A DNA stretch of 10,490 nucleotides. Origin: Pseudomonadota bacterium. Its GTDB lineage: Bacteria > Pseudomonadota > Gammaproteobacteria > GRL18. The translations under genes were made by a program, and so were the position numbers. This document shows positions 1 through 10,490 of the stretch, piece by piece (position 1 is the stretch's first letter; the number at the start of each line of letters is the position of its first letter). Below the pieces are notes generated by a model. It had not been told where the DNA came from. It made no database searches and saw only the letters and a program-made list of their open reading frames with translations. The stretch spans positions 1-10,490 of the forward strand of contig DAOVUE010000010.1 of assembly GCA_030632745.1 (NCBI GenBank), given 5' to 3'.

Positions 1-1146
1 CGGATTGTGATCCAATTGCCCGGTATCCAGGATACGGCCGGAGCAAAAGATATTCTGGGTGCTACTGCCACGCTTGAATATCGAGCGGTTGATGAAGAGC
101 ATACCGTGGAACAGGCATTAAATGGCCGTGTTCCTGCAGGATCAAGAATTTACCATACTCGTGAAAGAAGAGAAGGCAGTCGGGTTATTCCTTCTGTACC
201 GGTATTATTGAAAAAGCGCGTTATTACCACGGGTGAACATGTGACCAATGCACAGGCTGGAATTGATCCGGATACAGGCGGTGCCAAGGTCAGTGTGTCT
301 CTGGACGGCTATGGTGGTAAACGTATGGGGGCTTTTACCAAGAACAATGTAGGTAACCGCATGGCGGTGGTTTATCTGGAAACCAAACAGGAAACTGCAC
401 TGGATAAGGACGGTAATATCGTCAGGGATGAAAAAGGTAATCCTGTTTTAAAACGTCATACTATTGAAGAAGTCATCAGTAATGCCGTTATTCGCGGGCA
501 TTTCTCCAATCGCTTTGAAACAACCGGCCTGGATAGTGTGCAGGAAGCTAATAATTTATCACTTCTGTTAAGAGCAGGCGCATTAGCAGCACCGGTTTAT
601 ATTATAGAAGAACGAACTATTGGTCCAAGCCTGGGACAGGATAATATTGATAAAGGCTTTAACTCCGTCATTATTGGTTTTGTGGCGGTACTGTTCTTTA
701 TGGGGTTCTGGTACCGGAAGTTCGGCTTAATTGCCAATCTGGCTCTGTCATTAAACCTGGTTATTATTGTGGCGGTTTTATCTTTATTACAGGCGACTTT
801 AACCTTGCCCGGTATTGCCGGTATAGTATTAACCGTGGGTATGGCTGTTGATGCAAATGTGTTGGTTTTTGAACGGATTCGGGAAGAATTACGCAATGGT
901 AATTCCCCTCAGAATAGTATTAATGCAGGCTATGAAAAGGCATTGTCAACTATTGCAGATGCCAATATCACCACGCTGATTGCGGCATTTGTACTGTTTG
1001 TGGTTGGAACCGGTGCGATTAAAGGTTTTGCTGTAACTCTTTCTATCGGTATTATGACGTCGATGTTTACCGCTATTATGGTGACCAGAGCAGTGGTTAA
1101 TCTTCTCTATGGTTCTGAACGTTCTCTGAAAGATATATCAATATAG
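1..1146 (+). CDS. secD: Protein translocase subunit SecD (5'-truncated by window edge)
   Basis: SecD partners SecF (and usually YajC) in the inner membrane, where the proton-driven SecDF complex helps pull secretory proteins through SecYEG on the periplasmic side. The reading frame is open from the first base ([12 protein letters not shown]), matching the internal [27 protein letters not shown] stretch of E. coli SecD. By length against the 615-residue E. coli protein, about 235 N-terminal residues lie upstream of the window. Visible parts are the periplasmic P1 portion, the [15 protein letters not shown] segment (here [14 protein letters not shown]), [10 protein letters not shown], and the membrane helices with [16 protein letters not shown]. 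Asp284 of the visible fragment in that motif corresponds to the conserved proton-path aspartate (about D519 in E. coli). It ends [14 protein letters not shown], like E. coli. The GTG at position 7 is an internal valine codon, not a start. secF follows after 30 bp. Confidence 0.97.
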
Positions 1147-1176
1147 TCAATTAAGTTTTTAAAAAGATAAAATATT

Positions 1177-2118
1177 ATGCAAATACTAACAGATACACAT
1201 ATTAAGTTTATGTCGCAGCGCAAAGTTGCGATGCTGATCTCAGCTGTTTTAATTGTAATATCCATTGTTTCACTGGCGACCAGAGGCTTGCAGCTAGGTC
1301 TGGATTTTACCGGCGGTACATTGATAGAAGTTGCTTATCCTAAGGCGGTAGAACTGAAACCTATCCGTGATCAGCTGCATAATAATGGCTTTGATGATGC
1401 CATTGTGCAGCATTTTGGTTCCGCGAGTGAAGTGCTGGTGCGTATTGCTCCCAAAGAGGGTGTTTCAAATGCTGATATCTCCACGCGACTTTTTGAACTG
1501 CTGCGTGCGCAGAATGCTGCGGTACAAAACCAACGTGTGGAATTTGTCGGACCTCAGGTGGGTGAGGAACTGACAGAAACGGGTGGTATCGCCATGCTGG
1601 CTGCTTTAGCCTGTATTCTGGTTTATGTTGCCTTACGCTTTGAATATCGTTTTGCTTTAGGTTCCGTGGCTGCCCTGGCACACGATGTGATTATTGTAAT
1701 GGGCTTGTTTGCCTTATTTGGTATTGAATTTGATTTGACTGTATTAGCTGCGATTCTGGCAGTGATTGGTTATTCTCTTAATGACACCATAGTGGTCTTT
1801 GATCGTATCAGAGAAAACTTTCGTAAAATTCGTAAGGGAGATGCCATGGAGGTTATTGATGCGTCTTTAAACCAGACTCTGGCCCGAACTTTGATTACCT
1901 CAGGAACTACCTTAATCGTATTGATTGCCCTGTTTGTTTTCGGCGGTGAGCTGATCAATGGTTTTGCCACAGCCTTATTAGCCGGTGTTATTATTGGTAC
2001 TTATTCCTCTGTTTATGTCGCCAGCTCAGTTCTGGTTGCGATGGGGATCAGCAAGGAAGATCTAGCGCCGGTGAAAAGTGAAGGGGATCAGCAGGAAGAG
2101 ATCTACGAGGAAGTTTAA
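1177..2118 (+). CDS. secF: Protein translocase subunit SecF
   Basis: SecF forms the proton-driven SecDF translocation-assisting complex with SecD in the inner membrane. The protein has 313 residues (E. coli SecF 323). Diagnostic motifs are GLDFTGG at residues 41-47 just after the first membrane helix, a periplasmic P4 domain, then five helices carrying NDTIVVFDRIREN at 202-214, and TLARTLITSGTTL, the SecF signature, further on. The first membrane helix is preceded by a short cytoplasmic segment (MQILTDTHIKFMSQRKVAM), as in family members. The ATG start is preceded by an A-rich stretch (AAAAAGATAA) with no good Shine-Dalgarno, so translation may depend on readthrough from secD 30 bp upstream. 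The acidic C-terminal tail (QQEEIYEEV) is unremarkable. The next gene begins 2 bp after its stop, so the two are probably co-transcribed. Confidence 0.97.
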   Translation: MQILTDTHIKFMSQRKVAMLISAVLIVISIVSLATRGLQLGLDFTGGTLIEVAYPKAVELKPIRDQLHNNGFDDAIVQHFGSASEVLVRIAPKEGVSNADISTRLFELLRAQNAAVQNQRVEFVGPQVGEELTETGGIAMLAALACILVYVALRFEYRFALGSVAALAHDVIIVMGLFALFGIEFDLTVLAAILAVIGYSLNDTIVVFDRIRENFRKIRKGDAMEVIDASLNQTLARTLITSGTTLIVLIALFVFGGELINGFATALLAGVIIGTYSSVYVASSVLVAMGISKEDLAPVKSEGDQQEEIYEEV

Positions 2119-2123
2119 CTTTG
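2107..2123 (+). promoter_or_regulatory. Shine-Dalgarno and TTG start of the Nudix gene
   Basis: GAGGAAG (2107-2113) sits inside the last codons of secF, 7 nt before the TTG at 2121. The nearest ATG (2128) is in another frame that stops within a few codons, so this site decides the start as TTG. Confidence 0.6.
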
Positions 2124-3014
2124 TTAAATGCATCTCTGTCTATTGCAGAGCGTAATCAGGCTTTTTTAAACTGGATCAATGAATGTAACGCCTATAAGGC
2201 AGATAGCTATCTGCCTTTTGTTATTGATAATACCGTTTTAGGTTATATTCATCAGCAGCAGAAAAGCAACTTTGTCCCCTTTGATGCCAATTTTATCCTT
2301 ACAACCTATCAGGGACAGGAAGCTGTTAGTTTCCACCCTGGTATTCATACTATTGAAGAGCGCACATCTGCGGCCAATAAACTGGCTCAGAGCTGGTATG
2401 ACTCGGGTATTATCAGTTCCTGGGTTGGCGAACAATATCATGTCAATACAGGCTTTAACCATCCGTCATTTTTTACCATTGAACGTGCAGCAGCTTCCCT
2501 GCTGGGAATCAAAAAATATGGTGTACATGTTAATGCCTGGGTAGAAAAGCAGGGTGAATACTTTTTATGGGTGGCAAAACGCGCAAAAGATAAATTTACC
2601 TTTCCGGGTAAGTTAGATCATCTGGTGGCAGGTGGTCATGGTGCCGGCTATCGTATTGAAGAAACCCTGATCAAGGAATGTGCAGAAGAAGCCAATATTC
2701 CAGCAGCGATTGCCCAAACTGCCCGGCCTGCTGCAATGATTTCCTATGCAATGGAGCATCAGCAAAAATTACAGCAGGATAATTTATTTATTTATGACCT
2801 GAAACTGGAGAGTGACTTTATTCCGCAAAATACCGATGGTGAAGCGGAAGAATTTTATCTCTGGCCTGTTGAAAAAGTATTACAAACCGTTGCCACCAGT
2901 AGAGACTATAAAACCAATTGTAATCTGGTCATTATCGACTTTGCAATCCGCCATGGTTTTTTAAAACCTGATGAACCGCTGTATAGTGATCTCTGTTCAG
3001 GTCTGCACAGATAA
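2121..3014 (+). CDS. Nudix hydrolase with DUF4743 N-terminal domain (thiamine-pyrophosphokinase-related type)
   Basis: A 297-residue soluble protein with no signal peptide. Residues 1 to about 130 look like the DUF4743 domain (FVIDNTVLGYI, then ERAAASLLGIKKYGVHVNAWV entering the Nudix fold). The Nudix box lies at about 171-193: GGHGAGY then KECAEEANI, with K185, E186, E189 and E190 at the metal-binding REUxEE positions. Tyr177 replaces the first Glu of the canonical box, and Asn192 the Gly. The related eukaryotic Nudix proteins (S. pombe Tnr3 Nudix half, yeast YJR142W) remove damaged forms of thiamine diphosphate. A similar clean-up role here is only an inference, and another pyrophosphate substrate is possible. 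Start choice: there is no in-frame ATG near the N-terminus. TTG at 2121 is preceded by GAGGAAG (2107-2113) at a workable distance. It follows secF by 2 bp with no obvious functional link to secretion. Confidence 0.85.
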   Translation: MLNASLSIAERNQAFLNWINECNAYKADSYLPFVIDNTVLGYIHQQQKSNFVPFDANFILTTYQGQEAVSFHPGIHTIEERTSAANKLAQSWYDSGIISSWVGEQYHVNTGFNHPSFFTIERAAASLLGIKKYGVHVNAWVEKQGEYFLWVAKRAKDKFTFPGKLDHLVAGGHGAGYRIEETLIKECAEEANIPAAIAQTARPAAMISYAMEHQQKLQQDNLFIYDLKLESDFIPQNTDGEAEEFYLWPVEKVLQTVATSRDYKTNCNLVIIDFAIRHGFLKPDEPLYSDLCSGLHR

Positions 3015-3163
3015 ATTGAAAAAAAGTTTGTATTGTAATAAATTTGTAACATTATAAGATTATAATATCAGCCGATATTTATTGTCTCAGCACGCTAGTA
3101 AAACTATGCACTTCTCCTCGTGGAGCCTACTTTTGGTAGTGCAAGGCTTTAGCTGCTACACAT

Positions 3164-3255
3164 ACCCCCATCCCAACCTTCCCCCTCAAAAGACAGGGGG
3201 AAGGGGCTTTAAGTTCCTCCCCCTAGTCTTTTATAGGGGGAGGTTAGGAGGGGGT
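3164..3255. repeat. GC-rich nested palindromic (REP/MITE-like) element
   Basis: The outer arms pair as ACCCCCATCCCAACCT (3164-3179) with AGGTTAGGAGGGGGT (3241-3255): 14 pairs, one bulged A at 3170 and one mismatch. Inside are two 28-nt hairpins. The first is CCTTCCCCCT (3177-3186), loop CAAAAGAC, AGGGGGAAGG (3195-3204). The second is CCTCCCCCTA (3216-3225), loop GTCTTTTA, TAGGGGGAGG (3234-3243). Both stems are 10 perfect bp. The two hairpins, including their loops, are approximate reverse complements of each other, so the whole 92 bp is one long imperfect palindrome. Such C-run/G-run palindromes are commonly dispersed in bacterial intergenic regions. Copy number cannot be judged from this window. 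Confidence 0.75.
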
Positions 3256-3261
3256 GTTTTT
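3164..3261 (+). terminator. Possible Rho-independent terminator of the secDF-Nudix operon
   Basis: The long GC-rich outer stem closing at 3255 is followed at once by G and five T (3257-3261) on the plus strand. No T-run follows it on the minus strand. This fits an intrinsic terminator acting on upstream plus-strand transcription. The distance from the Nudix stop (about 150 bp) and the unusual size of the structure keep this tentative. Confidence 0.35.
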
Positions 3262-3287
3262 GATTTTAAGGACTTTCAGTCCATAGT
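3260..3287 (+). promoter_or_regulatory. Weak sigma70-like promoter candidate for the respiratory-complex operon
   Basis: TTGATT (3260-3265) and CATAGT (3282-3287) are separated by 16 bp, each matching 4 of 6 consensus bases. Transcription would begin near 3294, leaving a leader of about 35 nt before the first start codon. A perfect 13-bp palindrome (GGACT-TTC-AGTCC, 3270-3282) fills most of the spacer and could bind a regulator or merely be a hairpin. An alternative is the isolated TATAAT at 3061-3066, upstream of the GC-rich element. Confidence 0.25.
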
Positions 3288-3327
3288 CGTTGAGTTACTA
3301 TAACAGCACAGCACGGAGAAGTATTAG

Positions 3328-3906
3328 TTGGATAGCAAGTTGGATAGCCGTTTGAATGATGATCCTGGAGCAAAAGGTGGAACAGATGGTAGTATTGAGA
3401 CTAGAATAAAACACCCGCTCCGGGATCGTGCTGTATTATTTGTAACTCTATTACTGTTCTGGCTTATGCTGAATGGAACACTGGCTGTTGACAGCCTGCT
3501 TATCGGTATACTGGTTTCATTTATCATTACTCTTTTGTTTTGTAGTGGTTTGTCTTTCTTTACTGAGTTTCGTGCCACACCACAGGCCTTTGCTGCAGGC
3601 ATCTTTTACTATATCTATTTCTTCAAACAGCTGGTTAAATCAAATTTCAAGCTGGCTGCTATTGTCCTCTCACCCTCATTACCCATTAACCCCGGCATTG
3701 TTAAAGTACGTACAAAATTAAAGAGTCGAATGGGCAGACTGATGCTGGCTAATTCAATTACTCTCACCCCTGGGACACTGACTATGGAGATGGATGGTGA
3801 ATGGATATATGTTCATTGTGTTACTGTGGAGTCAACTAATATCGAACAGGCGACGGCACAGATTGTGGCCGGCTTTGAGTCCTATCTTGAGGTGATGTAT
3901 GGTTGA
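3328..3906 (+). CDS. mnhE: Na+/H+ antiporter subunit E-like protein (MnhE/MrpE; MbhA/MbxA position)
   Basis: First gene of the operon, 192 residues. MrpE-type subunits are small membrane proteins of the Mrp/MBH ion-translocating module. After a hydrophilic N-terminus (about residues 1-33) come two adjacent hydrophobic segments (LFVTLLLFWLMLNG and LLIGILVSFIITLLF) and a third around FAAGIFYYIYFF. The family signature follows from about residue 135: MGRLMLANSITLTPGT, then DGEWIYVHCV. The roughly 30-residue N-terminal extension is longer than usual, since MnhE proteins normally begin close to the first helix (158-170 residues). TTG at 3328 is chosen because GGAGAAG (3315-3321) lies at good distance and no in-frame ATG precedes the first helix. 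A second TTG at 3340, in a 12-bp tandem duplication, is too far from that site. Its 3' end overlaps mnhF by 8 bp. Confidence 0.88.
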   Translation: MDSKLDSRLNDDPGAKGGTDGSIETRIKHPLRDRAVLFVTLLLFWLMLNGTLAVDSLLIGILVSFIITLLFCSGLSFFTEFRATPQAFAAGIFYYIYFFKQLVKSNFKLAAIVLSPSLPINPGIVKVRTKLKSRMGRLMLANSITLTPGTLTMEMDGEWIYVHCVTVESTNIEQATAQIVAGFESYLEVMYG

Positions 3907-4159
3907 AACACTGATTATTATCGCTGCGATACTGGCGGGAATTGCATTTTTGCTGGCCCTGGGGCGCTTTATCGAAGGACCTACTGCGGCTGACCGTGTA
4001 GTCGCGTTTGATGTTTTGACGGTTATCTCTATTACTTTTATTGTCTTCAGTGCACTGATAGAAGAGCGTGGAATCTATCTTGATGTGGCTTTGGTGTATG
4101 CATTGCTTTCTTTTCTCGGTGTTATTGCTATTGCCCGTTACCTGGAGGGAAGGTTCTAA
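3899..4159 (+). CDS. mnhF: Na+/H+ antiporter subunit F-like protein (MnhF/MrpF; MbhB/MbxB position)
   Basis: An 86-residue, three-helix membrane protein matching the MrpF family in length. It has the conserved loop GPTAADRVVAFDV (residues 27-39, with Asp32 and Arg33) between helices 1 and 2, and ends with the helix YALLSFLGVIAIARYLEG. In Mrp and MBH complexes this subunit belongs to the small-subunit cluster thought to build the cation pathway. The ATG overlaps the end of mnhE by 8 bp, and the stop overlaps the next start by one base (TAATG), so translation is probably coupled. Confidence 0.92.
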   Translation: MVETLIIIAAILAGIAFLLALGRFIEGPTAADRVVAFDVLTVISITFIVFSALIEERGIYLDVALVYALLSFLGVIAIARYLEGRF

Positions 4160-4536
4160 TGCAATGGATACTTGATCTAAGCGGTGGTTTATTACTCATT
4201 GCAGGCTCAGCTTTTTTATTATTTGGCGGGCTGGGCCTGGTTCGTATGCCCGATATTTTTAACCGCATACAGGCGGGTACTAAAACAACGACTTTGGGCA
4301 CCATACTGATCCTGGCAGGTGCTGCCTTTTTAAATCCGCAATGGGGATTTAAACTGCTGCTTATCGGCTTATTCCTTCTTTTTACCAACCCTCTTTCTTC
4401 GCAAGTGCTGGCTCGTGCGGCACATCGTCGCGGCGGAGATAAATCACCTAAAGCCACTGTGGACAGGCTTGCCGAAGACCTTCCTGACCGTCGTTCCAGG
4501 GTTCGGGATTCCAGCGCAAGTGGAGAGCATTTATGA
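4159..4536 (+). CDS. mnhG: Na+/H+ antiporter subunit G-like protein (MnhG/MrpG; MbhC/MbxC position)
   Basis: A 125-residue membrane protein of the MnhG/PhaG family. Helix 1 (LSGGLLLIAGSAFLLFGGLG) leads into the signature loop VRMPDIFNRIQAGTKTTTLG (residues 28-47), which matches the family pattern of RMPD, a few residues, then K-x-TTLG. Two further hydrophobic segments follow. After about residue 85 there is a roughly 40-residue hydrophilic tail rich in Arg, Asp and Ser, predicted cytoplasmic and without a recognisable domain; it is variable in the family. GGAGGGAAGG (4144-4153) within the end of mnhF is a strong ribosome binding site. The stop overlaps the next gene in ATGA. Confidence 0.9.
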   Translation: MQWILDLSGGLLLIAGSAFLLFGGLGLVRMPDIFNRIQAGTKTTTLGTILILAGAAFLNPQWGFKLLLIGLFLLFTNPLSSQVLARAAHRRGGDKSPKATVDRLAEDLPDRRSRVRDSSASGEHL

Positions 4537-4787
4537 GTACATTAATGATTGCAATCAGCCTGATATTCGCCATTGCTATGATTAGTGCCGCCTTTGTGGC
4601 CATCTATGCAAAACGCATAGCAATTGCGATACTGGCTGCCGGTTTAGTGAGTCTGTTGGCATCGGTGATGTTTCTGTTTCTTGCCGCTCCGGATGTTGCA
4701 ATGACGGAAGCAGCCATTGGCAGCGGCTTAACAACCTTTTTGTTTTTCTTTGTGTTGGGTCGTGTACGGGGAGAAAAAAATGATTAA
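4533..4787 (+). CDS. MbhD-like membrane subunit (DUF4040; hydrogenase subunit MbhD / MrpA C-terminal type)
   Basis: An 84-residue protein of three hydrophobic segments. The core motif APDVAMTEAAIGSGLTT spans residues 52-68, with Asp54 and Glu59 in the membrane. This is the hallmark of DUF4040/MbhD, which corresponds to part of the MrpA C-terminal extension in canonical Mrp antiporters. In MBH-type complexes MbhD sits in the ion-translocation module next to MbhE and MbhF. Having it as a stand-alone gene, without an MrpA antiporter domain, is what separates MBH/MBX-type operons from stand-alone mrp operons. It overlaps mnhG by 4 bp (ATGA) and the next gene by 8 bp. Confidence 0.88.
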   Translation: MSTLMIAISLIFAIAMISAAFVAIYAKRIAIAILAAGLVSLLASVMFLFLAAPDVAMTEAAIGSGLTTFLFFFVLGRVRGEKND

Positions 4788-5481
4788 AAATTTTATCGTT
4801 CTGTTGTTTTTGTTCGGGCTCGGTATGATATTTTCTGCTCTTCTGCTGGGCTATACGCCTGATAGTGAATTGAATCTGACGGGACGTTACTATGCGGAAC
4901 ATACCGCACAGGATTTAGGAGCTGCTAATATTGTCACTGCAATTATTGTCACCTATCGTGGTCTGGATACCCTGGGTGAAGTCACAGTTTTATTCCTGAC
5001 GGCAGCAATTGTGGGCATGTTATTATCAACCGGGGCTGGCAAGGGTAAGTCACTGCAGCGCAAGTTGTCTCAATCCGGTGAACTGCTGACAACCGGCAGT
5101 CATCTTCTGGTGCCACTGATACTGCTGTTAGGTGCCTATGTCTTTATCAATGGTCACCTGACTCCCGGCGGCGGGTTTCAGGGCGGTGCCATTATAGCTT
5201 CAGCGATTCTTCTGATATTACTTACTGATCCTCTGTATCGCTTTAGTCATCAACTTATTTCTATAGTGGAGTCAATATCCGGACTGATTTTTCTGGCCCT
5301 GGGCGTATTGGGTATTTTCTTTGCGGGCGGCTTTCTGGATAACCGGATTTTACCTGTTGGAGAGCTGGGTTCATTATTTTCTGCCGGAGCCATACCGATT
5401 ATCTATTCTCTTGTTGGTCTTAAGGTGGGAGCTGAATTCAGTTCAATGCTGGTTAATTTCTCTGAAACAGAGGATTCATAA
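4780..5481 (+). CDS. mnhB: MbhE-MnhB fusion membrane subunit (MbhE/MbhF-like)
   Basis: A 233-residue protein with two parts. Residues 1-90 resemble MbhE: a first helix, then the signature NIVTAIIVTYRGLDTLGE at 50-67, found in MrpA C-terminal ends. Residues about 103-225 are a four-helix MnhB/MbhF domain with HLTPGGGFQGGA at 126-137, the classic MnhB motif. The corresponding parts are separate genes in P. furiosus mbh. The ATG at 4780 is chosen over an upstream in-frame GTG (4750) because GGGGAG (4768-4773) sits 6 nt before it, and the upstream extension would only translate the end of the previous gene in another frame. The stop shares one base with the mnhC start. Role: membrane part of the ion-translocating module. 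Confidence 0.88.
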   Translation: MIKNFIVLLFLFGLGMIFSALLLGYTPDSELNLTGRYYAEHTAQDLGAANIVTAIIVTYRGLDTLGEVTVLFLTAAIVGMLLSTGAGKGKSLQRKLSQSGELLTTGSHLLVPLILLLGAYVFINGHLTPGGGFQGGAIIASAILLILLTDPLYRFSHQLISIVESISGLIFLALGVLGIFFAGGFLDNRILPVGELGSLFSAGAIPIIYSLVGLKVGAEFSSMLVNFSETEDS

Positions 5482-5837
5482 TGGTTACTATTGCAATGCT
5501 GACCGGTTTTATACTGATTCTCATGGGCCTTTACGGGGCGCTTACTAATCACAATATTCTGCGTATGATCGTTTCATTCAGTGTGGCCAACACCGGCGTT
5601 AATATTGTTCTGGTTGCCGTTGGTTATATACATGGCCGTACAGCTCCGATATTAAATGAGGCGGTTCCTGCAGCAGAGGCCGCAGCACGCATTATTGATC
5701 CGGTACCGCAGGCACTGGTGCTTACCGCGATTGTGATTGGTCTGGGCATTACAACCCTGATGCTGGCGTATGCCTATAAGTTGTATGAAATGAAGGGATC
5801 ACTTGATATTAGCAAGTTTTCGGAGCTGAAATGGTAA
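5481..5837 (+). CDS. mnhC: Na+/H+ antiporter subunit C-like protein (MnhC/NuoK-like; MbhG position)
   Basis: A 118-residue NuoK-superfamily protein with three helices. The family pattern is clear: a first helix (GFILILMGLYGAL), NHNILRMIVSF at about 23-33, and DPVPQALVLTAIVIG at 73-87, typical of MnhC/MbhG proteins. NuoK/MnhC subunits bridge antiporter modules to the rest of the complex. The helix-2 position that is glutamate in NuoK is not acidic here (VSFSVANTGVNIV), as in other MrpC-type proteins. The start shares one base with the previous stop. The 3' end overlaps the next gene by 7 bp. Confidence 0.9.
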   Translation: MVTIAMLTGFILILMGLYGALTNHNILRMIVSFSVANTGVNIVLVAVGYIHGRTAPILNEAVPAAEAAARIIDPVPQALVLTAIVIGLGITTLMLAYAYKLYEMKGSLDISKFSELKW

Positions 5838-8800
5838 ATGCTATTTTTATTATAGTGATTGGTCTTGGGACAGCATTTCTATTAGGACTGCTGCGTGAAA
5901 CCTGGCGTCATACTGCCTATGCTGTGATGCTCGCTGCACTGGCTGTAATGGCATGGATAGCCGTTCGCTGGCTATTATTCTTTGCCGTTGATGGTGCTGC
6001 GCCGGTTGATATTCTGACTGCGGGAACTGCACCGCCGTTTGCCATTAACCTGCGCCTGGGAATCACTGAGGCTGTACTGATGGTGCTGGTGATTGTATGC
6101 GGATTGTTGTCAGCAGTGTATATGAAAGAGTCACTGCTAAGACTGGGTCGTCGGGCGATGTCTGTTTTACTGGTTTTTATTATGGCTTTATGCGGCATTA
6201 TAATGACCCGTGATCTATTTAATCTATTTGTCTTTTTTGAGCTGGTGGTTATTGCCACTGCGGGTCTTATCCTTCTTTCCGAGAATAAACAGGCTTTGAC
6301 GGCAGGTTTTAAATATCTGATTATTTCTCAGATGGTTTCTATTTTTCTGCTTATTGGTATTATTTTTACTTATCATACGACGGGTACCCTGAACATTGAC
6401 GGTATGGCAGGAACATCAGCGGATATGTTGAAAGGGGCCGGCAGCCTGGCTTTCTTTCTTATGCTGATGGCGGTGCTGATCGAAGCAAAACCCTTCCCGG
6501 CAAATGGCTGGGCTCTGGATATCTATGAGTCGGCACATCCGGCATTTTCAGCACTTTTTTCTGCTGCTATGGCGGGTGCTGCAGCGGTTTATGCCGTGGA
6601 TAAATTACTACTGATCACCGGGCCGGAATGGCTGCCGGCTGTCACTGCTATCGGCCTGATCAGCTTTGTTGCCGCGAATCTGCTGGCTTTGGCTCAAAGC
6701 AGTGATCGGCGTACACTGGGGTATTCCTCAGTCGGTCAGGTGGGTTTAATACTGGTGGTGATTGGTCAGCGTGATATTCTTGGTGATCAGTATCTTTATA
6801 TTGCCGGAGGTATTCTGCTTTCTCATGCGATTGCTAAAGCAGGTTTATACTGGATTTCAGGCTTATTGAGTCAACGCGACTTAACGGCATGGAGCGCTCT
6901 GAGAGGGCATCCTCTGCTGATTTTTGCCTTTATCAGTTTTATTGCCATGTTAAGCGGTTTACCTCCTTTTCCCAGTTTTTATGCCAAGTGGGAGCTTTTT
7001 ATGGCACTGGCGGTTGAAGGCCGTTTGTGGATAATGGGCTTTATTCTTTTTGGCGCTTTGCTTGAAGCGAGTTATTTATTCCGCTGGTTTGGCTATATTC
7101 TCAAACGGGAAACAGCTGAAGAACACAAAGACGCTCAGATTCTTTCTTTAGCACCGCACAAACTGGTGGTCATATTGACAGCGGTTGTTGTCGGCTGGGG
7201 ACTGGCCTATGTTTGGGGTGAGATTTCTGTTTATAGTAATTTATTGTATGCCTTGCCGCTGCTGTTTGCGCTGAGCTTTGTATTGCTCGACTGGTTGCCT
7301 GCATGGATTAAGAATACCGTGGTGATTGCCGGTATGGTGGCGTACTTTGTAGTCACTTATCCGCTGTATGATCCGCTGCAGCTTATCTTCGCAGTTATTT
7401 TTCTCCTCGGCGGAGCGGTTATCTTTTTAGCCAGTTATCATGCTCATGGTCGACGGATTGGCTTTTACCCCTCTGCAATGCTGATGTTTGCAGGTCTTAG
7501 TATGCTGATTGTTGCTGAGGATTCCTTCCATTTCTTTGCCGCCTGGGAATTTCTGACCATAGGTTCTTACTTTTTGATTATACGCGGTAAACATTCAGAA
7601 CCTCATGCCTTATCCTATCTTGTCTTTTCTCTTGGGGGGGCATTTCTCATTCTGGCCGGATTTGTTGTGGCGGCACAGGGTGTTCAACTGTTTAACCTGG
7701 AATCACTAAGTCAGGTGGCAGCACCTCTGGCCCCCTGGGTTTTTCTGCTGCTGGCCATTGGCTTTATGACTAAAACAGCCGTTATGGGACTGCATATCTG
7801 GCTGCCCGGCGCTCATGCCGAGGCTGAAACAGATGTCTCTCCTATGGTGTCAGGCATACTTCTAAAAGCCGGCTTGTTTGGTATTATGATCCTGCTGATG
7901 AATATGGGCAAGCAGCAGCTGTATGGAGTTGAGCTGACTTATATCATGCTCTGGATAGGTGCTCTGTCAGCATTTCTGGGGAATTTAATGGCCGCTTTTC
8001 AGGAGGATGCTAAACGCTTACTGGCCTATTCCTCTATTGGTCAAATGGGCTATGCGCTATTTGGTCTGGCACTGATGAACCAGCTGGGCTGGATGATGGC
8101 AATGATGTTTGTTATCAATCATTACATCTACAAGTCTATGTTATTCCTTTCAGTCGGCGGAGTTGCAAAACGGACCGGGACTCGTGAAATGTATCAGATG
8201 GGCGGCTTAATTGCTTTGATGCCGCTTTCATTTATAGCGGTTCTGATTGGTATTATTGCCGTATCCGGCGTGCCGCCCTTATCCGGTTTTGGCGGCAGAT
8301 GGATCTTCTACAATGCTATCATGAGCTCCGAGTATCGATTACCGATGATACTGATCTTTCTTTCAGGGCCAATCGCTTTTCTTTATCTGTTCCGTTTGAT
8401 CCATACCATATTCCTTGGTCAGTTGAAGGATGAACATCGCAAGCTTAAAGAAGCACCTTTCTGGATACTATTACCGCAGATGATCTATGTCGCTGCGCTA
8501 ATGGTATTCGCATTAGTTCCCGGACTTGCACTGCGTAAAGTGGATGCCTATCTGAATCCTTTCTTTACCGATCATGGTCTGAACTGGGAAGGGCTTACCA
8601 TCACCAGTGACTATGGTTATTGGAGTCCTGTTTCTATCATGATTGTTATTGCCGTTATCTTCGGTGTTCTTTTTGCCTGGCTGCTGTTTGTCAATCGTAA
8701 GGCACAAAAAGTAAAACAGTTTAATATTGTTTATTCTGCTGAAAGACCTTTTCGTCCGGAAACCACTCATTTTGCGTGGAACTTTTATGCCCCGTATCGT

Positions 8801-8977
8801 AAGGCAATGGGCTTCTTAATGCAGCCCCTGGTAACACGTTTCTGGGCTGCGGTCACCGATCTGCTGCATACGCTGGCTGATCTGGTGCGTCGTTTTTATA
8901 CCGGCAACGGGCAAACCTATGCCATTCAGTTACTGGCCTTTGTAATTATCGTTTATCTTTTCAAAATGGAGTTTTAG
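5831..8977 (+). CDS. Tandem fusion of two MnhD/NuoM-type proton-translocating antiporter subunits (MbxH-MbxH'-like)
   Basis: A 1048-residue polytopic protein that reads as two complete NuoL/M/N-type antiporter modules (usually about 480-500 residues each) plus a C-terminal extension. Module 1 (about 1-425) has LFNLFVFFEL with Glu137, Lys161, EAKPFP with Lys220, SHAIAKAGLY with Lys336. A charged stretch near 427-435 (ETAEEHKD) leads to module 2 (about 455-930). Module 2 has AAWEFLTIGSYF with Glu573, MTKTAVMGLHIWLPGAHAEA with Lys648, GILLKAG with Lys679 and NHYIYKSM with Lys768. These are the helix-5 Glu and membrane Lys of the ion path. Module 1 has Gly249 where module 2 has Lys679. The C-terminus (RRFYTGNGQTYAIQLLAF) resembles that of MBH-type antiporter subunits. 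The frame is continuous, so this is a true fusion. GGAG (5822-5825) supports the ATG at 5831. The NuoH-like gene starts 2 bp downstream. Confidence 0.9.
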   Translation: MVNAIFIIVIGLGTAFLLGLLRETWRHTAYAVMLAALAVMAWIAVRWLLFFAVDGAAPVDILTAGTAPPFAINLRLGITEAVLMVLVIVCGLLSAVYMKESLLRLGRRAMSVLLVFIMALCGIIMTRDLFNLFVFFELVVIATAGLILLSENKQALTAGFKYLIISQMVSIFLLIGIIFTYHTTGTLNIDGMAGTSADMLKGAGSLAFFLMLMAVLIEAKPFPANGWALDIYESAHPAFSALFSAAMAGAAAVYAVDKLLLITGPEWLPAVTAIGLISFVAANLLALAQSSDRRTLGYSSVGQVGLILVVIGQRDILGDQYLYIAGGILLSHAIAKAGLYWISGLLSQRDLTAWSALRGHPLLIFAFISFIAMLSGLPPFPSFYAKWELFMALAVEGRLWIMGFILFGALLEASYLFRWFGYILKRETAEEHKDAQILSLAPHKLVVILTAVVVGWGLAYVWGEISVYSNLLYALPLLFALSFVLLDWLPAWIKNTVVIAGMVAYFVVTYPLYDPLQLIFAVIFLLGGAVIFLASYHAHGRRIGFYPSAMLMFAGLSMLIVAEDSFHFFAAWEFLTIGSYFLIIRGKHSEPHALSYLVFSLGGAFLILAGFVVAAQGVQLFNLESLSQVAAPLAPWVFLLLAIGFMTKTAVMGLHIWLPGAHAEAETDVSPMVSGILLKAGLFGIMILLMNMGKQQLYGVELTYIMLWIGALSAFLGNLMAAFQEDAKRLLAYSSIGQMGYALFGLALMNQLGWMMAMMFVINHYIYKSMLFLSVGGVAKRTGTREMYQMGGLIALMPLSFIAVLIGIIAVSGVPPLSGFGGRWIFYNAIMSSEYRLPMILIFLSGPIAFLYLFRLIHTIFLGQLKDEHRKLKEAPFWILLPQMIYVAALMVFALVPGLALRKVDAYLNPFFTDHGLNWEGLTITSDYGYWSPVSIMIVIAVIFGVLFAWLLFVNRKAQKVKQFNIVYSAERPFRPETTHFAWNFYAPYRKAMGFLMQPLVTRFWAAVTDLLHTLADLVRRFYTGNGQTYAIQLLAFVIIVYLFKMEF

Positions 8978-8979
8978 TA

Positions 8980-9885
8980 ATGCAGTTTGAATGGATACAG
9001 ATCCCTTATGCACTTTTAACCCTGTTTATTGTGATTAACTATGGTTTGATAATGAATGCTCTGGTGGCCAAAATAGGCGCACGAGTGGGAAGACGTCATG
9101 GTATTCCTATTTATCAGAATTATTTCGATCTGATTAAGAACTATGGGTTGCGAAGCTCCATTACACACGGTGTAATGTTCTACCTGGGCCCTGTGTTTCG
9201 ACTGTCCGGAGGAGTGGGGCTGTTGCTTTTTGTACCCACCATTTATGGTTCGGTCATGTTTTCCAATTTTTCTTTTTCCGGCGATCTTATTCTGGCACTT
9301 TATTTTATCTTTTTTGGTACCCTGGGTATGGCTCTGGGCGCAGCTGAAAGTGGTCATCCTCATGCAGCTATGGGTATTTCCAGGGGCTTGTCGCAAGTCA
9401 CTATGGCTGAACTGCCTTTGACTCTGGCGGTATTTTCTATAGCTCTGCAATATCAGACCCTGTCCGTTACAGATATTGTGGCTGCTCAGCAGGGCAGTAT
9501 ATTGAACTGGACTTTATTTACCAATCCTATCGCCGTAGCGGCGGCAATGCTTTCGTTTCTGGGTTCAGTCATGCGTCCGCCGTTTGATGTAGTGCTGGCA
9601 CCCCAGGAAATTCCCATTGGACCGCCCACTGAATATCATTCGTCCTATCTGGCATTGATGCAGACTAATCGTGTTATTTATCCCACCGCTAAAATGGTCA
9701 TTTTTATGAGCCTTTTCTTTGGTGGAGCGACCAGCTGGCCGATATTTTTCCTTAAGATTTTCCTGATTTATATGTTTGCTGTTTTTGTCGGCGTTGTGTT
9801 TCCTCGTTTTCGTGTCGAACAGTCTATCCGCTGGTTCCTTATCTGGGCAGTTCCCCTGGGTATTCTCTCTGTGTTATTGGTATAA
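8980..9885 (+). CDS. NuoH/MbhM-like membrane subunit (complex I subunit 1 family, Ech/MBH type)
   Basis: A 301-residue polytopic protein, the connector between the membrane ion-pumping arm and the peripheral redox arm. Family motifs: helix 1, then ARVGRRHGIPIYQNYFDLIK (residues 34-53), which matches the first cytoplasmic loop (RxGPPIxQPxxDxLK in MbhM/EchB/HyfC proteins). Also ESGHPHAAMG (123-132), MAELPL with Glu144, then RPPFDVVLAPQEIPIGPPTEY (199-219), the quinone-site/E-channel loop of NuoH where TEY is strongly conserved, and PRFRVEQ near the end. Loop 1 lacks the NuoH-type GPNRVGP and instead resembles group-4-hydrogenase/MBX subunits, arguing against ordinary complex I. GGAG at 8968-8971 precedes the ATG by 8 nt. 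The gene starts 2 bp after the fused antiporter gene. Confidence 0.9.
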   Translation: MQFEWIQIPYALLTLFIVINYGLIMNALVAKIGARVGRRHGIPIYQNYFDLIKNYGLRSSITHGVMFYLGPVFRLSGGVGLLLFVPTIYGSVMFSNFSFSGDLILALYFIFFGTLGMALGAAESGHPHAAMGISRGLSQVTMAELPLTLAVFSIALQYQTLSVTDIVAAQQGSILNWTLFTNPIAVAAAMLSFLGSVMRPPFDVVLAPQEIPIGPPTEYHSSYLALMQTNRVIYPTAKMVIFMSLFFGGATSWPIFFLKIFLIYMFAVFVGVVFPRFRVEQSIRWFLIWAVPLGILSVLLV

Positions 9886-9891
9886 AGGCTT

Positions 9892-10490
9892 ATGAAAGAA
9901 GAATTAGAAAAACGTATTATTAAGGGACCCGATGGCCTCGAATTTGAAGTCGAACCGCTGCGCGATTATTATTGTGAAGCTGCACCTACAGTGATGCCGG
10001 CGGCCTATAGTAAAATTGTTGAAAATTTATTTAACTGGGCTCGTTCAGAATCCATCTGGATTTTAGGCTTTGGTACGGGTTGTGGTGCCATTGAGATGCG
10101 GCCATTAATGACACCGCGTTTTGATGCCTATCGTTATGGCGTGCAATGGCGGCCCACACCACGCCAATCCAATTTATTTATTATTTCAGGCTATCTGTCG
10201 GTAAAAACCCTGAAACGTGTGATCCGTTCTTACGAACAGATGCAAAATCCAAAATATGTGATAGGTTTGGGTTCCTGCACCATTAATGGCGGTATGTACT
10301 GGGATTCTTATAATACCATCAAACGCCTGGATCAGTATCTTCCTGTTGATCTTTATATCACCGGATGTATGCCTCGCCCAGAGGCTTTACTGGCGGGTTT
10401 TGTGGATTTGAAAAAACTGATCCGCTCAGGTAAGGCCGAGGGTGCTAATGAATACGCTGAAAACTTTGAATGGTATAAGGCTAATCAAAA
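9892..10490 (+). CDS. NuoB/MbhJ(MbxJ)-like Fe-S subunit with one cluster cysteine missing (3'-truncated by window edge)
   Basis: The frame is open from ATG 9892 to the right edge: 199 complete codons and no stop. The protein is the 20-kDa-type subunit carrying the terminal [4Fe-4S] cluster at the interface of the peripheral and membrane arms. It aligns over the whole NuoB core: NWARSESIWILGFGTGCGAIEM, then TPRQSNLFIISG, LGSCTINGGMYWDSYN and PVDLYITGCMPRPEAL. The ligand cysteines of E. coli NuoB are C63, C64, C129 and C158. Here the equivalents are C64, Gly65, C129 and C159, so one of the tandem pair is lost. The CxxC of [NiFe] hydrogenase small subunits is also absent. An extra Cys28 lies near the N-terminus. 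AAGG at 9885-9888 is a weak ribosome binding site, 6 nt after the nuoH-like stop. NuoC/D/I-like genes should follow. Function as electron-transfer or catalytic cluster subunit is inferred. Confidence 0.9.
   Translation, partial: MKEELEKRIIKGPDGLEFEVEPLRDYYCEAAPTVMPAAYSKIVENLFNWARSESIWILGFGTGCGAIEMRPLMTPRFDAYRYGVQWRPTPRQSNLFIISGYLSVKTLKRVIRSYEQMQNPKYVIGLGSCTINGGMYWDSYNTIKRLDQYLPVDLYITGCMPRPEALLAGFVDLKKLIRSGKAEGANEYAENFEWYKANQ

Follow-up and report, generated by a model that had tools for sequence, protein, structure and literature searches.

What does a NuoB-like subunit do with a [4Fe-4S] cluster site that has lost the second Cys of the conserved tandem pair? The question is raised by contig DAOVUE010000010.1 (C353), from a gammaproteobacterial draft genome of 2.07 Mb in 407 contigs that is 71.5% complete. 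The window, as we call the stretch analyzed, is this whole contig of 10,490 bases, and its last open reading frame (9892-10488, + strand) encodes the NuoB-like protein and runs off the contig end. The original prediction held that C64, C129 and C159 of this protein are intact and that Gly65 stands in for the second tandem Cys; all four residues were read directly in the sequence (Table 1). Whether the site is equivalent to that of the archaeal complex MBS of P. furiosus had been left open.

The three-cysteine site and its archaeal counterpart

The NuoB-like protein reads WILGFG61-T-G-C64-G65-A-I-E-M across the site. It aligned with the tandem Cys of complex I, which appears as LACCAVEM in 5ldw_B and TACCFIEF in 6hum_K, and the same columns of P. 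furiosus MbsJ read FCTGCGGIEM, i.e., C-G. Searched against the PDB, the small subunit matched MbsJ (6u8y_J) best, at 221.5 bits (1e-64), and the next entry at 133.8 bits. In this alignment MbsJ C28 corresponds to C64, G29 to G65, C93 to C129 and C123 to C159, and MbsJ C25 falls on Gly61. Passages of the cryo-EM report on MBS state that C28, C93 and C123 are the only ligands of the MbsJ proximal cluster, C25 being too far away, and describe non-cysteinyl coordination of the cluster iron; they also place MbsL C385 adjacent to this cluster and indicate, from C25A and C85A/C385A variants, that MbsJ C25 and MbsL C85 and C385 are not involved in MBS catalysis (PMC7684303). The question of equivalence can thus be answered, as the same Cys is replaced in MbsJ (C28-G29, with three Cys ligands). 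Judged by sequence, the three-Cys/Gly site is the one already known to characterize MBS; the window protein has it in a cleaner form, without the spare Cys (Gly61 for C25). By analogy, we infer that the cluster iron would be open in the bacterial complex as well.

Conservation of the site was followed in 80 related loci (80 of 511 confirmed stretches) and in two homologue searches, one with the window protein as query (best 120 of 2607) and one with P. furiosus MbsJ (best 120 of 1266); the loci and the resulting 240 proteins were chosen by similarity and overlap in their source genomes. C64, G65, C129 and C159 were kept in all 81 copies (the 80 loci plus the window's own), in 240 of 240 homologues listed and throughout a 45-sequence alignment. 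The original prediction had pointed to close homologues as the place to check C-G, and to a Cys-Cys pair in a homologue with the same gene order as the case against it; C-G was found in every one of them, including the 55 loci with the full gene order, and Cys-Cys in none. The Gly65 codons across the 80 loci were GGC (53), GGG (14), GGT (10) and GGA (3), and the use of all four Gly codons indicates that Gly itself is selected. Based on this conservation and codon usage, a sequencing error or lone mutation at Gly65 was rejected.

Position 61 was more variable. It was Gly in 77 and Ala in four of the 81 copies, and Gly in 119 and Ala in one of the window-protein list (best 120 of 2607). The MbsJ list (best 120 of 1266) had Cys in 110, Gly in eight, and Tyr and Ala in one each. 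In all four complex I NuoB proteins compared this column was Gly. A tree of 93 rows, built to ask whether Cys25 was gained or lost, separated the C61 rows from the rest at one branch (99/98). Complex I attached within the G61 rows by a very long branch of 3.26 changes per column, and this attachment point is not reliable. An AlphaFold model of the small subunit had a mean pLDDT of 73, with residues 67-84 below 50, and was weak around the Gly65 site.

Table 1. Operon genes and cluster-site codons located in the window.
Feature	Position	Strand	Basis
MrpE-like subunit (MbsA-like)	3328..3906	+	NCBIfam TIGR00942 and related, below cut-off; conserved operon order
MrpF-like subunit (MbsB-like)	3899..4159	+	NCBIfam subunit F models, below cut-off
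MrpG-like subunit (MbsC-like)	4159..4536	+	TIGR01300 over cut-off
DUF4040-type subunit (MbsD-like)	4533..4787	+	PRK12504, PRK08378, below cut-off
MnhB-type subunit (MbsE-like)	4780..5481	+	PRK12567, below cut-off
MnhC/NuoK-type subunit (MbsG-like)	5481..5837	+	PRK07375, PRK08388, below cut-off
Fused antiporter-like pair, 1048 aa (MbsH-H' like)	5831..8977	+	PRK08377 at 3-456, PRK08668 at 445-1044
NuoH-like membrane anchor (MbsM-like)	8980..9885	+	NuoH models, below cut-off
NuoB-like small subunit (MbsJ-like)	9892..10490	+	PF01058; best PDB match 6u8y_J, 1e-64; 3' end beyond contig
Gly61 codon, column of MbsJ non-ligand Cys25	10072..10074	+	Alignment to 6u8y_J, homologue lists
Cys64 codon TGT, column of MbsJ ligand Cys28	10081..10083	+	Alignment to 6u8y_J, PMC7684303
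Gly65 codon GGT, in place of complex I second tandem Cys	10084..10086	+	Alignment; Gly in 240/240 homologues listed
Cys129 codon TGC, column of MbsJ ligand Cys93	10276..10278	+	Alignment to 6u8y_J, PMC7684303
Cys159 codon TGT, column of MbsJ ligand Cys123	10366..10368	+	Alignment to 6u8y_J, PMC7684303

The operon and its subunits

Upstream of mrpE, positions 1-3014 of the window hold a partial SecD-like gene and a SecF-like gene, as read from the ORFs, as well as a gene for a DUF4743-Nudix protein. No matches to secF or the Nudix gene were found in the 80 related loci, whose upstream flanks are mostly short. The spacer before mrpE (3030-3310) is a dispersed repeat that matched the genome partially at 22 other places, and a small ORF (3082-3303) lies mostly inside it.

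The 12-gene order mrpE-F-G-DUF4040-mnhB-mnhC-HH'-nuoH-B-C-D-N/GltD was complete in 55 of the 80 loci, and each of the remaining 25 held a contiguous part of it. The antiporter-like halves H and H' formed one unbroken frame in all 67 loci holding both. A rubrerythrin-like gene was present in 58 of the 80 loci, at the operon end in 55 and upstream in three, and came last in 48 of the 55 full-order loci; perhaps its product protects the open cluster from peroxide or oxygen. At the locus whose small subunit is 97% identical to that of the window (L003), nuoB is followed by nuoC, nuoD, a gene for a 606-aa NuoI-GltD fusion and the rubrerythrin-like gene (L003:12342-12860). On a second contig of the source genome, C17, the first gene is a nuoD cut off by the contig start; the N-GltD fusion and a rubrerythrin-like gene (L100:2881-3393) come next, and the three are 94%, 84% and 81% identical to their L003 counterparts. 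The nuoC gene seen in relatives falls in the gap between contigs in the source genome. With these genes the MBS gene set (an Mrp-type arm, two antiporter subunits, MbsM, J, K, L and N) was present. After the operon on contig C17 lie two small genes resembling an antitoxin and PIN-type toxin pair (L100:3718-4256). A look for sulfur genes next to the operon, within flanks of a few kb, gave no group of flanking ORFs that recurred in more than nine of the 80 loci.

The best PDB match of the NuoD-like subunit was MbsL (306.5 bits), the next scoring 209. In 75 of 75 loci holding the gene, His38 and Tyr87 of Nqo4, which we take to be quinone-site residues of complex I, were replaced by Thr41 and Val90, and R[IV]CVPEPD took the place of the first NiFe motif, retaining MbsL C85 (Cys89 here). 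The MbsL C385 column was Tyr in all 72 of the 75 loci in which it was covered ([LF]HTYPPEIER), and the copy in the source genome reads RICVPEPD and LHTYPPEIER. Of the four NiFe Cys, MBS retains two (C85 and C385), and the bacterial L subunit keeps C85 only. In the large subunit of group 4 [NiFe] hydrogenases two CxxC motifs bind NiFe. We rejected a NiFe hydrogenase of this group (Mbh) as the identity of the complex, with both CxxC motifs replaced by the two sequences above, and also a quinone-reducing complex I, with the quinone His and Tyr absent and the tandem Cys-Cys reading Cys-Gly. Homology would place Tyr385 of the NuoD-like subunit (L003:9269-10441) close to the proximal cluster, where it could serve as a ligand or donate a proton.

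The N-GltD subunit consists of an MbsN/NuoI-like ferredoxin domain fused to a GltD-like FAD/NAD flavoprotein. Its best NCBIfam model was PRK13984 (861.5, below the cut-off of 946). In a set of 121 rows, for which the homologue search gave the best 120 of 7970, the sequence GGGNVAMD and 17 Cys, enough for four [4Fe-4S] motifs, were invariant, and the FAD motif GAGPAG was in place in 112. The NADPH-type YRR motif occurred in none of these 121 rows, which have TA[LM]E-type letters instead. In the three DsrL enzymes measured in PMC7596348 the cofactor followed the motif, NADP(H) where YRR was present and NAD(H) where it was missing, so that the lack of YRR in N-GltD predicts NAD(H) as the partner. 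NADH as the donor is a prediction from this motif. MBS takes electrons from ferredoxin through a flavin-free MbsN; here the N subunit itself carries an FAD/NAD domain, although ferredoxin might serve in addition.

Related operons and sulfur genes in the carriers

By record title, the carriers of the window's GTGCG type belong to the Alpha-, Beta- and Gammaproteobacteria and the Magnetococcales. Among the matches listed, the source genome was the only one of 184 class genomes with this type, and four others joined it among 299 phylum genomes. A same-genus genome that is 99% complete is without the GTGCG type, yet has dsrA. A CTGCG-type copy was found in seven of 183 class genomes (source genome aside), again among the matches listed (L083-L086 and L101-L103). 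The J subunit of this type was 51-54% identical to the window protein, and both C-G and C25 were kept in all seven. Its operons at L083-L086 have the same subunits, including N-GltD and a rubrerythrin-like gene, and all four keep C385 and also C85; H and H' were separate genes in both of the operons checked (L083 and L086).

In the carrier genome G229 an additional, divergent operon of this kind lies at L096:2123-13294. Its small subunit is 66% identical, C-G and the H-H' fusion are retained, and mrpG and DUF4040 stand in swapped order. The L subunit reads RIAVPEP and LHTYPPEIER with Ala in the Cys89 column, and C25, C85 and C385 are all lost. That L096 keeps C-G though these three Cys are gone fits the claim made for MBS, namely that the cluster acts without them. 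The operons form a natural mutation series, in which C25 and C385, and then C85, are lost while C-G is retained, and this series bears on catalysis by the cluster alone.

Of the 81 carriers (80 loci and the source genome), the same 49 genomes were searched for dsrA and nifH. The dsrA model TIGR02064, which does not tell oxidative from reductive DsrA, scored over its cut-off in 42 of these 49 (own genome included) and in 63 of 184 genomes of the window's class, a background to be set beside carriers that by title also include Alpha- and Betaproteobacteria. Leaving out the own genome, the odds ratio was 11 (Fisher p 9e-11, kinship ignored); seven of the 49 had no dsrA over cut-off. Within the class, dsrA was present in seven of seven genomes with the CTGCG type and in 55 of 176 others (p 4e-4). 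The dsrA contig of the source genome also has genes that, read by eye, resemble dsrN and dsrR, which are known from oxidative dsr clusters. Based on taxon names and the look of this contig, we take the hosts to be sulfur oxidizers.

The intended control, nifH, was over cut-off in 23 of the 49 carriers (G184-G231 and G000) and in 16 of 184 class genomes, a count that may be low since at most 12 candidates were scored per genome. By odds ratio this enrichment was about as strong as that of dsrA, and lifestyle or kinship could therefore produce both links. The link of the operon to sulfur is strong, but not exclusive.

Proposed reaction and comparison with known systems

We propose that the complex couples ion transport, in the manner of MBS, to a reversible oxidoreduction between NAD(H) and sulfane sulfur, and on the sequence evidence we give this reading a probability of about 0.6. 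In this view, the window would supply the membrane arm of a bacterial MBS-like complex wired to NAD(H), and also its small subunit, which carries the cluster. NADH and FAD would exchange electrons with the proximal cluster along the four-cluster chain of the N subunit. The cysteine-free iron of that cluster would bind polysulfide or another persulfide, where an S-S bond would be made or broken, and the NuoH-like and fused antiporter subunits would couple the reaction to H+ or Na+ transport. By our own estimate from standard potentials, the forward reaction with NADH instead of ferredoxin would yield about 10 kJ/mol, and with so little energy the complex is expected to be nearly reversible. For the archaeal MBS reaction, a passage of PMC7684303 gives 41 kJ/mol per 2e. 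In presumed sulfur oxidizers the complex would run more often backward, a direction we slightly favor, with the ion gradient driving NAD+ reduction by electrons from sulfide or persulfide; it would run forward when stored sulfur is reduced without oxygen.

A narrower version of this proposal, which we offer tentatively and consider somewhat unlikely, is that of a gradient-driven sulfane-sulfur:NAD+ oxidoreductase in rDsr sulfur oxidizers. Electrons from sulfide or persulfide would enter at the [4Fe-4S] iron and reach NAD+ without passing through complex I or the quinone pool, and catalysis would need only the three Cys and the Gly. If this is correct, the complex would be a cheap form of reverse electron transport.

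Of the alternatives, the one that survives best is that the complex runs forward only, as an energy-conserving, NADH-dependent reductase of polysulfide or S0 for which stored globules would be the sink in dark or anoxic conditions. It has the direct analogy with MBS in its favor, and many carriers belong to genera that we take to be formers of sulfur globules (Thiothrix, Thiohalocapsa, Lamprocystis, Halochromatium, Thiocapsa and Magnetovibrio). However, the carriers Gallionella, Sideroxydans and Rhodoferax are not known to be globule formers, and electron flow from NADH to sulfur yields little energy. A passage of PMC11636981 mentions S0 reduction in other organisms with regard to the Mrp-Mbx of the Riftia symbiont, but itself lists the direction of that complex as unknown. 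We regard forward-only operation as possible, though doubtful.

A substrate of another kind at the open iron, either quinone-like or an organic disulfide, with Tyr385 as a proton donor replacing the quinone-site Tyr and His, seems unlikely to us. We know of no complex that uses the Tyr385 position for quinone, and the quinone residues His38 and Tyr87 are absent from all 75 loci. In addition, 46 of 52 distinct carriers (53 were counted, of which G224 and G313 are the same by coordinates) had one or more other NuoB proteins of 39-45% identity, taken to belong to a separate complex I. What argues for such a substrate is the presence of Tyr385 in all 72 covered loci, in the own genome and in L096, at a position that by homology is near the proximal cluster (PMC7684303).

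We also think it improbable that the cluster serves plain electron transfer with a fourth ligand from outside the Cys site, be it water, Cys89 or Tyr385 of the NuoD-like subunit, or another residue. Cys89 occurs in 75 of 75 loci, and both it and Tyr385 are placed where ligation or protonation would be possible. However, L096 has Ala for Cys89 and still keeps C-G, and the passages of PMC7684303 cited above, with C85 and C385 not involved in catalysis and a non-cysteinyl coordination of the iron, argue against this role in MBS. Least probable is an ion-driven upgrading of electrons to low potential, e.g., for nitrogenase ferredoxin, with the cluster site as their point of entry: it draws on the nifH enrichment, but 26 of the 49 carriers, the window's draft genome among them, have no nifH over cut-off, and the N subunit is not ferredoxin-only but has an NAD-type flavoprotein at its end.

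What is new is the setting: an operon of 12 subunits in which Mrp subunits, two fused antiporters and NuoH/B/C/D-like subunits stand together with an MbsN-like subunit that carries a GltD-like flavoprotein as a fusion. Among the matches listed, proteins of Magnetococcus marinus and Candidatus Kentron are already named mbxJ in databases. Of the literature matches listed for Mbx in sulfur oxidizers (titles and abstract starts, mostly of open-access papers), none gave a bacterial site or NAD fusion, and in the literature searched no activity, EPR or structure was found for a bacterial member. The Mbx/MBS accounts in the available parts of PMC6085437, PMC12724263, PMC6349859, PMC10373932 and PMC4053972 do not describe the bacterial operon, and the term "Mbx" is absent from PMC8542988. 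A different, Hyf-like bacterial cluster was argued in a passage of PMC4053972 not to be a sulfur reductase.

In the literature examined, all measurements of MBS chemistry were made in a hyperthermophilic archaeon and with ferredoxin. If our reading is correct, S-S chemistry at a cluster iron would extend to other sulfur bacteria, several of which are cultured (Thiothrix, Chromatiaceae and Magnetovibrio), the energetic price of NADH made from sulfide would need recalculation for autotrophs, and sulfur chemistry would be tied to cell energy in a new way.

Several known systems invite comparison. For the symbiont of Riftia pachyptila a "putative Mrp-Mbx complex" has been published, in the one paper of the literature searched that uses the term Mrp-Mbx, and its first neighbors there are shared with those of rTCA genes; the account, in the passages available, gives no cluster site, NAD domain or mechanism (PMC11636981). 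Based on the shared name and a sulfur-oxidizing symbiont host, it is probably a relative, likened here by description only. The DsrL, NfnB and GltD flavoproteins have FAD and NAD(P) domains and a Fer4_20 region in common with N-GltD, which differs in its fusion to a NuoI/MbsN-like ferredoxin domain and its place in the operon of a membrane complex. Complex I has homologous J, L, K, M and N subunits and shares the Gly at column 61 in the four NuoB proteins compared; in the bacterial complex CC has become CG, the quinone His and Tyr are gone, a GltD-like flavoprotein replaces NuoEFG, and Mrp subunits are present. The CTGCG-type copies share the C-G site but keep C25, C385 (in the four operons read) and separate H and H' (in the two checked), whereas the window type is without C25 and C385 and has H and H' fused. 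With MBS (formerly MBX; 6U8Y), the bacterial complex shares the TGCG three-Cys/Gly motif in J, the RICVPEPD motif in L, an Mrp-type arm with two antiporter subunits, and the same kinds of subunits. It departs from MBS in having Gly for C25 in J (Ala in four of 81) and Tyr for C385 in L, in the fusion of H and H', and in the rubrerythrin-like gene that mostly ends the operon. MbsN (6u8y_N), at 208 aa, is too short for a flavoprotein, whereas in the bacterial complex the N subunit continues into an NAD-type GltD-like domain. From this combination of shared and distinct features, the complex is predicted to be an NAD(H)-linked bacterial variant of MBS.
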